From Thermoplasmata archaeon (GTDB lineage Archaea; Thermoplasmatota; Thermoplasmata; Lutacidiplasmatales; UBA184), in NCBI GenBank assembly GCA_022749895.1, contig JAKIWS010000014.1, forward strand, positions 1-40,363: a stretch of DNA of 40,363 bases, written 5' to 3'. The translations under genes and the position numbers were made by a program. Positions 37,631-40,317 of this stretch are shown here, one piece after another; position 1 is the first letter of the stretch, and each line of letters starts with the position of its first letter. The notes under the pieces were generated by a model. It was not told where the DNA came from and did no database searches. It saw only the letters and a program-made list of their open reading frames with translations.

Positions 37631-37681
37631 AATCAGAATAATCAGATAAATCAACTAGAGCTAAATAGTCTGATGCTCTGA
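37631..37681 (+). promoter_or_regulatory. Promoter of the arsenic operon, with bracketing repeats
   Basis: Three direct 9-bp repeats (AATCAGAAT, AATCAGATA, AATCAACTA) occupy 37631-37657. A TATA box CTAAATAG is at 37661-37668, 35 nt before the ATG at 37696. TCTGAT (37669-37674) and CTCTGA (37676-37681) follow, reverse complements of the ATCAGA core. The promoter is thus bracketed by inverted copies, as expected for a repressor site. Confidence 0.62.
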
Positions 37682-37695
37682 GGAGTTCGGTCACC

Positions 37696-38034
37696 ATGCC
37701 GAAAGCAAAGAGCGCGGCGAAGAAGTTGGGCGCCACCGAAAGCGGAGCCTGTTGCGGGGAGGACTGCTGCGGCGGTGGGATCAGCTGCTGCGGGATGCCC
37801 GCCGTCGGCTGCTGCGAAGTCGAGGCCGTGGTCGGGGTCGACGGACGCGGCCAGATGGTCCTCCCAAAAGAGATCCGGGAGAAGGCCGGCATCAAGCCCG
37901 ACGACAAGCTCGCAGTCGTCACCTGGAAAAAGGGGGACGAGGTCTGCTGCCTGACCCTGCTCAAGGTCGATTCACTTGCGGAGGCGATCCGGACCGCCTA
38001 CGGACCGATGCTGACCGAGATCCTGCACGCCTAG
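37696..38034 (+). CDS. Ten-cysteine AbrB-family regulator (HgcC-like)
   Basis: A 112-aa protein. N-terminus of about 40 residues has four Cys-Cys pairs (19-20, 24-25, 31-32, 39-40). An AbrB hairpin follows (VEAVVGVDGRGQMVLPKEIR, KLAVVTWKKGDE) with a fifth pair, Cys84-Cys85, inside it, and a helix to the end. It resembles the Cys-rich AbrB proteins found near hgcAB and arsM. Cys-Cys pairs can bind As(III) or soft metals, so it is likely the sensor-repressor of this operon, replacing ArsR. Promoter repeats support this. Inferred role. Confidence 0.82.
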   Translation: MPKAKSAAKKLGATESGACCGEDCCGGGISCCGMPAVGCCEVEAVVGVDGRGQMVLPKEIREKAGIKPDDKLAVVTWKKGDEVCCLTLLKVDSLAEAIRTAYGPMLTEILHA

Positions 38035-38042
38035 AGCGGCCC

Positions 38043-38507
38043 ATGTCCGGGCTCAACGATCGTCCGAGGACGGTCCTCTTCATCTGCGTGGGGAACGCCG
38101 GCCGCTCCTTGATCGCGGAAGCGATCTTCAACCACGCCCCGCCGCCCGGATGGCGGGCGGAATCCGGGGGCGTCCGACCGGCCTCGCAACCCCATGACCG
38201 GACGGGACGTATGCTGCAGGAGATCGGGCTGGAGCTCCCCCCTCATCCCCCTCAGATGGTGAGCGCGGAAGCCATGGAACGCGCGGCGATCCGCGTGACG
38301 ATGGGCTGCCTCGACGACGCGAGCTGCCCGGCGCGCCTCAAGACGCTCGAGGTACGCGATTGGGGACTGCCGGATCCGGCGAACCTCGACGACGCCGGAT
38401 TCCGCGGCGTCCGCGACCAGCTTCAGCTCCGCATCGACGGGCTCCGGAGGGAGATCGAGCTCGACGACCTCCGAACCGCGGCCCGTCGCCCAGCGACCGC
38501 CCCGTGA
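38043..38507 (+). CDS. arsC: ArsC-like arsenate reductase (low-Mr phosphatase fold)
   Basis: A 154-aa protein. The P-loop CVGNAGRS gives Cys15-x5-Arg21, and a redox pair appears at Cys89 (TMGC) and Cys95 (DDASC), followed by DWGLPDP, the ArsC version of the acid loop. Cys15, Cys89 and Cys95 fit the three-cysteine thioredoxin-coupled arsenate reductase mechanism. It reduces arsenate to arsenite. It starts 8 nt after the regulator stop and overlaps the channel gene (GTGA). Confidence 0.85.
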   Translation: MSGLNDRPRTVLFICVGNAGRSLIAEAIFNHAPPPGWRAESGGVRPASQPHDRTGRMLQEIGLELPPHPPQMVSAEAMERAAIRVTMGCLDDASCPARLKTLEVRDWGLPDPANLDDAGFRGVRDQLQLRIDGLRREIELDDLRTAARRPATAP

Positions 38508-39205
38508 GTCGTCCGCTCCCCCAACGCCTCCTCGCGGAGGCCGTGGGGACCGCGATCTTGGTCGGGGTCGGCACCGGCGCCATGGTGGCGACGGCCGGTC
38601 AAGCGACCTTGCGAGCCTGGGCGCTCCCGTTGGCGTGGTTCCTAGCGGTGACGGGCCCCGTCGCGTTGTTCGCCTCGATCTCGGGGGCCCACCTCAACCC
38701 CGTGGTCACGCTCGCCGCCGTCGCCCGACGGAGGCTCTCGATTCTCCACGGGATCGGCTACGCCCTCGCCCAGTTCGGAGGAGCCCTCCTCGGGAGCGCG
38801 CTCGTGCTCGTCACGCTCGGAAGGGCGGACCGCCTGGGATCTACGGTTCCGATCGGTGGCCTGGTCCGCGCGTTCGTCGCGGAACTGGGCTTCACCTTGC
38901 TCCTTGTACTCGTGGTCCTCTTCCTGATGGAACATGGGGCGGGCCGCGGGCGGTGGAAGCTTCTCCTCCCCGGGGCCGTCGTGGCCCTCTCCACGTACGT
39001 CATCGGACCTTGGAGCCGAAGTTCGTTGAACCCCGCCCGAACGTTGGCCCCCGCGATCCTCTCCGGGACGTACACGAATCTTTGGCTGTACTTTGTCGCC
39101 CCCACGCTCGGCGGAATCTTGGCGATCCTCGCGTGGTCGATTGGTTGCCCCCAGCGTTCGGATCAACGGCGCGCGCTCCACCCCGACGGCGCGCCTACCG
39201 GCTGA
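38504..39205 (+). CDS. MIP-family channel (AqpS-like candidate)
   Basis: A 233-aa aquaglyceroporin-like protein with six hydrophobic segments. First half-helix motif HLNPVVTL (NPV instead of NPA), second SLNPARTLAP (NPA intact). GTG 38504 overlaps the arsC stop. In rhizobial ars operons, AqpS takes the place of an arsenite pump, letting arsenite leave down its gradient; the same logic fits here. No arsB or acr3 gene is in the operon. Substrate inferred from context. Confidence 0.85.
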   Translation: MSRPLPQRLLAEAVGTAILVGVGTGAMVATAGQATLRAWALPLAWFLAVTGPVALFASISGAHLNPVVTLAAVARRRLSILHGIGYALAQFGGALLGSALVLVTLGRADRLGSTVPIGGLVRAFVAELGFTLLLVLVVLFLMEHGAGRGRWKLLLPGAVVALSTYVIGPWSRSSLNPARTLAPAILSGTYTNLWLYFVAPTLGGILAILAWSIGCPQRSDQRRALHPDGAPTG

Positions 39206-39390: not shown

Positions 39391-40317
39391 ATGAAGGAAA
39401 ACATGGAGACCAAGAGATCCGGACCTCGTCATCGAATCGAACGGTTGCCTCGGCTCCGACTCGCGGCGCTGAGCTCCGCCGGGGCTTCGGTCGGCCTGGC
39501 GGTGCTGATGCTGCTGGCCCCCGCCGCCGCCGGCAGCCCCGCTCTCACCGCGGTCAAGCTCGCTCCGCCGTTCCACGCGACGGTGACCACGTCGCAGTTC
39601 GTCGCCTCGTCGGGATGCGCCGCCGCGAAGGAACCCGACCCGCCCCAGTTCTCGAACGCGAACGGCGTCGGGTTGGCCCGCGAATGGACGAGGGCGAGCA
39701 CCGGTTGCAGCCCGGGGAGCGGCTACGGCTACGTCTACAACTCGCTGACCATCGCCTGGGCGATCCCGATCGCAGCGAGCGGGCCCCACTCGATCAAGAT
39801 CAACGCCGCCTACTCGTTCAACGCGTCCGCCGCGATCTCCTTTGCCGGCCCGTGCCCGACCACGACGACGACCTCCTCGTACGGGACGTTCACGAGCGGC
39901 TACTGCACGGCGAGCGCTTCGGTCGGCTTCCAGGGGCCGTTCTACCTGTTCGACACGACCAACTTCAGCTCGCTCGCGAGCCCCCATAACCTGCCGCCGT
40001 TCGCCCTCACCGCGGAGAACTCGGTGAGCACCTACTACGGCTGCTATAGCCCGTCGTACGGCGGAACGTGCTTCAGCTACAACTCGACCACGTACTCGCT
40101 CCACCACAGCTACGCCGTCCCCACGACCGGACCGATCCCGGTGGTGTTCTGGATCAACGGGACGCTCGACAGCTCGCACACGTACGTGCTCTACTGGTAC
40201 GGAAGCACGTTCACCACGGCGTACGCCAGCGGGTGGCCGACGGCGACCGCGAAATCGCATCTCGACTTCCAAACCGGCGGCAATGGGGTGTTCTTCCACT
40301 CGATCACCATCCACTAG
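39391..40317 (+). CDS. Secreted protein of unknown function
   Basis: A 308-aa exported protein. Basic N-terminus, hydrophobic signal segment (about 26-47, LAALSSAGASVGLAVLMLL, then APAAAG), then a beta-rich Ser/Thr/Tyr domain with six or more Cys, including SSGCAAAKEP, STGCSPG, FAGPCPTT, GYCTAS and the pair YYGCYSPSYGGTCFSY. Many Asn-x-Ser/Thr sites. No membrane anchor at the C-terminus, so it is probably released or bound non-covalently. A GGGAGG ribosome-binding site precedes ATG 39391; ATG 39403 is an alternative. Confidence 0.75.
   Translation: MKENMETKRSGPRHRIERLPRLRLAALSSAGASVGLAVLMLLAPAAAGSPALTAVKLAPPFHATVTTSQFVASSGCAAAKEPDPPQFSNANGVGLAREWTRASTGCSPGSGYGYVYNSLTIAWAIPIAASGPHSIKINAAYSFNASAAISFAGPCPTTTTTSSYGTFTSGYCTASASVGFQGPFYLFDTTNFSSLASPHNLPPFALTAENSVSTYYGCYSPSYGGTCFSYNSTTYSLHHSYAVPTTGPIPVVFWINGTLDSSHTYVLYWYGSTFTTAYASGWPTATAKSHLDFQTGGNGVFFHSITIH

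Follow-up and report, generated by a model that had tools for sequence, protein, structure and literature searches.

On the forward strand of a 40,363-nucleotide stretch of DNA from a Thermoplasmata archaeon (the window, by which we mean the whole stretch analysed), we found a three-gene operon encoding an AbrB protein with ten cysteines, a thioredoxin-type arsenate reductase (ArsC), and a channel of the MIP family, preceded by an array of short repeats (Table 1). The regulator gene and arsC are separated by 8 bp, and the GTG start codon of the MIP gene shares four bases with the TGA stop codon of arsC (GTGA). The original prediction had described this gene order and the start/stop overlap of the last two genes, and both are present in the sequence where it had placed them. 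The genome has a size of 2.02 Mb at a completeness of 83%, and gene absences in it are therefore provisional. Among the best 80 of the 477 stretches obtained in a GTDB contig scan, its nearest named kin include the Thermoplasmata MAGs AcS5-107 and AcS5-34, which are Lutacidiplasmatales genomes from acidic forest soils (PMC9287336); this placement relies on the relatedness of the loci compared.

Table 1. Positions of the genes and promoter features of the operon in the window.
Feature	Position	Strand	Remarks
Operator array	37633..37681	+	9-bp units TCAGAATAA / TCAGATAAA / TCAACTAGA, TATA unit GCTAAATAG, TCTGA, overlapping 8-bp-spaced TCTGA (37677-37681)
Starts of the units	37633; 37642; 37651; 37660; 37669	+	TCAGAATAA; TCAGATAAA; TCAACTAGA; GCTAAATAG (TATA); TCTGA
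TATA-like element GCTAAATAG, fourth 9-bp operator unit	37660..37668	+	same register in most Thermoplasmata loci
HgcC-family (NF040962) Cys-rich AbrB regulator	37696..38034	+	112 aa
ArsC, thioredoxin-type arsenate reductase, LMW-PTPase fold	38043..38507	+	CVGNAGRS P-loop; MGCLDDASCP
MIP channel, NPV/NPA, ar/R filter W/T/S/R	38504..39205	+	closest solved relative rice NIP2-1 (Lsi1)

The regulator and its relatives

The regulator matched the NCBIfam family NF040962 (HgcC, "HgcAB-associated protein") with 103.6 bits at a cut-off of 70, the AbrB family TIGR01439 with 33.3 (cut-off 28.3), and Pfam PF04014, which is named MazE_antitoxin, with 30.5 (cut-off 24.7). No match to the ArsR families of NCBIfam and Pfam, whose members have a winged helix with an ELCxC As(III) site, was obtained. 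Its cysteines form the predicted five Cys-Cys pairs, and eight of them are located in an N-terminal stretch comprising residues 19-41. An AlphaFold model computed with 27 relatives displayed an ordered region (residues 41-112) consisting of an AbrB-like core and a C-terminal helix (91-111), while the Cys-rich tail is predicted to be disordered, with residues 6-38 below a pLDDT of 50 (overall pLDDT 71, pTM 0.51). The best Foldseek matches of this model were SpoVT and AbrB at probabilities of 0.96-1.00, yet with E-values of 0.036 or worse, and a phmmer search of the PDB yielded weak AbrB matches only. The regulator thus has its fold in common with the swapped-hairpin proteins AbrB, SpoVT, and MazE, but differs from them in its N-terminal Cys array, its metal-gene regulon, and the lack of a toxin partner.

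Proteins scoring above the NF040962 cut-off occur in 44 of 400 genomes of the class. When the window protein alone served as query, no match was obtained among the GTDB contigs, while the 27-member alignment retrieved 477 stretches. The best 80 of these were combined with the loci from the class genomes, and removal of duplicates left 111 loci from bacteria and archaea. Reference ArsM, HgcA, and HgcB proteins pass the NCBIfam cut-offs, and the remaining neighbours were assigned to these references by phmmer. In this set, whose GTDB part is biased towards the window's sequence because only the best 80 of 477 stretches were used, the gene 3' of the regulator is arsM at 61 loci, hgcA at 36, arsC-MIP at 4, and another gene at 10. 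This bears out the predicted link of Cys-rich AbrB relatives to hgcAB and arsM. As arsM is the commoner neighbour, the name "HgcAB-associated" fits a minority of the sampled loci. In the window's own genome (83% complete) HgcA was not found, and it is arsC and the MIP gene, rather than hgcA or hgcB, that adjoin the regulator gene. Some loci combine several of these genes: at the bacterial locus L142, arsM and then arsC lie behind an HgcC-type regulator, and at L157 such a regulator is followed by arsM, with hgcA 2.8 kb further on.

An abrB/prlF gene upstream of archaeal hgcA has been described previously and was interpreted as an AbrB/PrlF/MazE-like toxin-antitoxin regulator (PMC10349881). Its product, HgcC, shares family, AbrB core, CC motif, and operator with the window's protein, which differs in heading arsC-MIP without hgcAB. 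In the open-access literature on AbrB-type regulators we found no description of the link to arsM, of the operator, or of an exchange with ArsR. By analogy with that interpretation, and in line with the Pfam fold name, the regulator could be a MazE/PrlF-like antitoxin whose toxin is lost or hidden. However, the next gene is arsM, hgcA, or arsC at 101 of the 111 loci and none of these is a toxin, searches of NCBIfam and Pfam gave no toxin-family match at the locus, where the next gene encodes ArsC, and both the cysteines and an operator shared with metal-gene promoters are conserved. We rejected this reading for want of a toxin partner and consider it highly improbable.

The pair C84-C85, located in the last strand of the core, is invariant across the aligned relatives. 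Another CC pair is located directly ahead of the AbrB core in 54 of 61 arsM-linked members, in 3 of 4 members heading arsC-MIP, and in 7 of 36 hgcA-linked members, a distribution that fits a putative three-thiol binding of As(III) in the arsenic branch. As a clean divider of arsenic from hgcAB members the N-terminal CC pair was discarded, as the correlation is confounded with phylogeny. The eight cysteines in a disordered tail, more than in arsM-linked members (N-terminal averages 7.5 versus 3.5), might also suggest that the tail acts chiefly as a metallothionein-like arsenite sink or as a chaperone for ArsC and the channel, with regulation being secondary. Against this, the conserved parts are the AbrB core and the operator, and several hgcA-linked members have just one or two N-terminal cysteines left; we thus regard a sink as a rather improbable main function.

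The operator at the promoter

Upstream of the regulator genes, a consensus operator TCWGA-N4-TCWGA-N4-TCWGA was identified that is conserved in bacteria and archaea. With at most one mismatch it is present in 77 of the 111 relatives' promoters, compared to 2 occurrences in 818,860 flanking positions. At most archaeal loci the TATA box occupies the next 9-bp unit after the array, with one more TCWGA-like unit behind it, while at several bacterial loci the array lies directly 3' of a TATAAT-like -10 element. An exact search of the 400 class genomes returned about 33 matches, 15 of which are located at promoters of this kind, all adjoining NF040962 genes. At the window's regulator promoter, this feature of the HgcC relatives is present at 37633-37673, where the units read TCAGA, TCAGA, and TCAAC, followed by GCTAAATAG (TATA) and TCTGA, which is the plan of the archaeal relatives. 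In the four genomes that have the regulator-arsC-MIP triad, the regulator promoter departs from the strict consensus by 1-2 mismatches and thus fits less well.

The original prediction had noted repeats around the TATA box and had taken them as the operator. A five-unit 9-bp register holding at least three TCWGA units occurs at a single place in the 40-kb window, and such an array was absent from all 100 sequences simulated from the window with a first-order Markov model. The repeats are therefore real and not due to chance, and their conservation in the relatives' promoters supports their assignment as operator. When the 2.02-Mb genome was searched allowing two mismatches, 37633-37673 was the sole site; the reversed pattern, used as a control, likewise matched once. 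A strict three-unit search of the window's genome and its sister genomes revealed no second regulon site in the window's genome, the other matches being scattered. The conservation strongly suggests that the regulator binds the TCWGA operator, and the layout is consistent with autoregulation by a protein that would cover the core promoter, pointing to repression rather than activation. Relatives of the regulator that have a TCWGA-type operator with no arsenic gene behind them were also observed (L081, L084, L091, L041-L043, and L045). They precede MptA (GTP cyclohydrolase) or a dienelactone-hydrolase-like protein or are orphans, and L041 is cut by a contig end.

Exchange of the regulator and a proposed mechanism

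ArsC was found in 89 of 103 genomes of the window's archaeal family, and 64 ArsC loci of this family were examined in wider context. ArsR is encoded upstream at 27 of the 64 loci, 26 of these proteins having the arsenic site ELCACE or ELCGCE, and the gene order is usually arsR-arsM-arsC-MIP or arsR-arsC(-MIP). At four loci, those of the window and of the genomes G025, G011, and G306, an HgcC protein is encoded instead, at an equal distance from arsC. No ArsR of the ELCACE/ELCGCE type was found anywhere in these four genomes, which are incomplete. Compared to the ArsR-headed operons of the same family, ArsC, the MIP channel, the gene order, and the position of the regulator are the same, whereas ArsR with its winged helix and ELCACE site is replaced by the Cys-rich AbrB-fold protein and a TCWGA array is present at the promoter. 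The original proposal that an AbrB-fold regulator substitutes for ArsR is thus supported by a direct displacement within the family, and the neighbourhood turned out to be conserved in the three other genomes. In an ArsC tree, the four HgcC-headed loci fall in three places, corresponding to three changes on the tree, of which well supported branches force just one; the swap may have had a single origin or three, both being compatible with the support. With the rest of the operon unaltered, this exchange of regulators provides the strongest argument from sequence for a response of the AbrB protein to arsenic. A gene 3' of the MIP gene (39391-40317, +) encodes a predicted secreted protein, and a clear homologue (L038:3777-4715) likewise lies behind the triad of G025.

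Taken together, we propose, with a probability of roughly 0.7, that the locus is an autoregulated operon for arsenic detoxification, and that ArsR has been displaced here by a thiol-rich repressor with an AbrB fold that belongs to the HgcC family (NF040962). The regulator, as a dimer or tetramer, would bind the 9-bp-periodic TCWGA array around the TATA box and would thereby keep TBP/TFB off the promoter. As(III), the presumed inducer, or a similar thiophile would be bound jointly by C84-C85 and the Cys-rich N-terminus. The loaded regulator would then leave the DNA, allowing the regulator, ArsC, and the channel to be made. Based on family knowledge and precedent, ArsC would reduce arsenate, and the resulting arsenite would exit as neutral As(OH)3 down its gradient via the wide W/T/S/R pore of the MIP channel.

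An alternative with regard to the signal is that the regulator binds the operator but responds to Hg(II) or another thiophilic metal, or to thiol or redox stress in general, the arsenic genes being part of a broad response to thiol toxins. The hgcA-linked relatives, which make up 36 of 111, and those with non-arsenic neighbours would be in line with such a signal, and CC pairs are able to hold Hg(II). On the sequence evidence, As(III), Hg(II), Sb(III), and redox stress are all candidate signals. However, hgcA was not found in the window's genome, the genes are arsenic-specific both here and at the 61 arsM loci, and the regulator occupies the place of an As-sensing ArsR. Bacterial hgcAB itself is reported, in a statement in PMC10349881 that cites Gionfriddo 2023, to be under an arsenic-responsive ArsR. 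We therefore consider a signal other than arsenic unlikely, while giving it some weight.

In many other organisms, the same unit of regulator and operator precedes arsM and hgcAB. It appears somewhat probable, though less so than the reading of the locus itself, that a family of AbrB-fold thiol repressors, spanning bacteria and archaea and sharing one conserved 9-bp-periodic core-promoter operator, forms a class alongside ArsR and controls arsM, hgcAB, and arsC-MIP. If true, this class would tie the expression of hgcAB to arsenic sensing. One regulator family with a readable operator ahead of hgcAB, arsM, and arsC-MIP would make the role of hgcAB and its switch in archaea, as well as the little-known regulation of archaeal arsM, testable in vitro. 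With the operator, regulons could also be predicted directly from DNA, and the regulator could serve as an alternative to ArsR in biosensors for arsenic or mercury. With respect to what the regulator senses, the swap from ArsR to AbrB within one operon is unusually direct genomic evidence.

Arsenate reductase, channel, and predicted arsenite exit

ArsC carries a C-X5-R P-loop with the Asn residue and two resolving cysteines (see Table 1), as is typical of the thioredoxin type, the first resolving Cys being one residue off relative to C82 of pI258 ArsC. The protein scored above the cut-off of Pfam LMWPc but below those of the curated ArsC families TIGR02691 (45.3 bits, cut-off 174.3) and NF010053 (55.3 bits, cut-off 215) of NCBIfam, indicating a divergent member. 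Its best solved relatives are the ArsC proteins of S. aureus pI258 and Archaeoglobus. The arsenate reduction originally assigned to the second gene is thus supported as the likely role of ArsC, the activity being predicted.

The MIP channel matched Pfam PF00230 with 122.2 (cut-off 25) and has the half-helix motifs LNPV and LNPA. Its closest relative in the PDB is NIP2-1, that is, rice Lsi1, which transports silicic acid and arsenite as well (PMC9510833). The W/T/S/R filter, derived from an alignment with Lsi1, is identical in all 36 parsed MIPs of the family. In these 36 proteins the motif is NPA in 28, NPV in 5, and NPI in 3; NPV as a special channel motif was therefore ruled out. Based on the context and the filter, the channel is predicted to conduct arsenite with an AqpS-like permeability for As(OH)3.

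It had been proposed that the operon contains a channel instead of a pump. There is indeed no pump gene in the operon, and a search of 11 related genomes did not yield Acr3. However, an unlinked ArsB/NhaD-superfamily permease is encoded in the window's genome (62.5 bits) and in those of G025 and G306, and passive exit as the sole route for arsenite thus stays a prediction. In addition, the arsC-MIP arrangement is the norm in the family rather than a peculiarity of this locus, with MIP located directly 3' of arsC at 42 of 64 family loci. In bacterial ars operons, MIPs account for 18 of some 730 transporters and always occur without another transporter (PMC4435449), and AqpS and the AqpS-ArsC fusion are established as arsenite exits (PMC6205960, PMC4435449). 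The ars operon of Sinorhizobium with AqpS and the actinobacterial AqpS-ArsC fusion likewise combine an arsenate reductase with an MIP and lack ArsB/Acr3, whereas the window's system is archaeal and AbrB-regulated and has a W/T/S/R filter and separate polypeptides encoded by overlapping genes. A channel in an ars operon is thus a known minority solution that is a lineage habit in these archaea.

Given the unlinked permeases, the channel could be an ordinary facilitator of water, polyols, or metalloids, with arsenite leaving mainly via another permease. We judge this doubtful, since the position behind arsC recurs in the family with an invariant filter, G011 has the triad but no PF02040 match, Acr3 was not found in the 11 genomes searched, and all 18 bacterial MIPs are the only transporter of their operon. 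An exit of arsenite through the channel remains the preferred reading. The operon arsR-arsM-arsC-MIP is common in the archaeal family (L219-L278), combining arsenic methylation with channel exit without a linked pump.

The unlinked permease gene of the window's genome (L279; G000:C1:132672-133895) lies beside a potassium-channel/TrkA-like gene, and its product may pump arsenite or act as an ion antiporter. The same genome contains an ArsM-like gene (L283; G000:C52:57905-58651) that scored below the ArsM cut-off, has an in-frame TGA, and encodes Gly in place of a conserved Cys; its product is probably not an arsenite methyltransferase, or is a decayed one.
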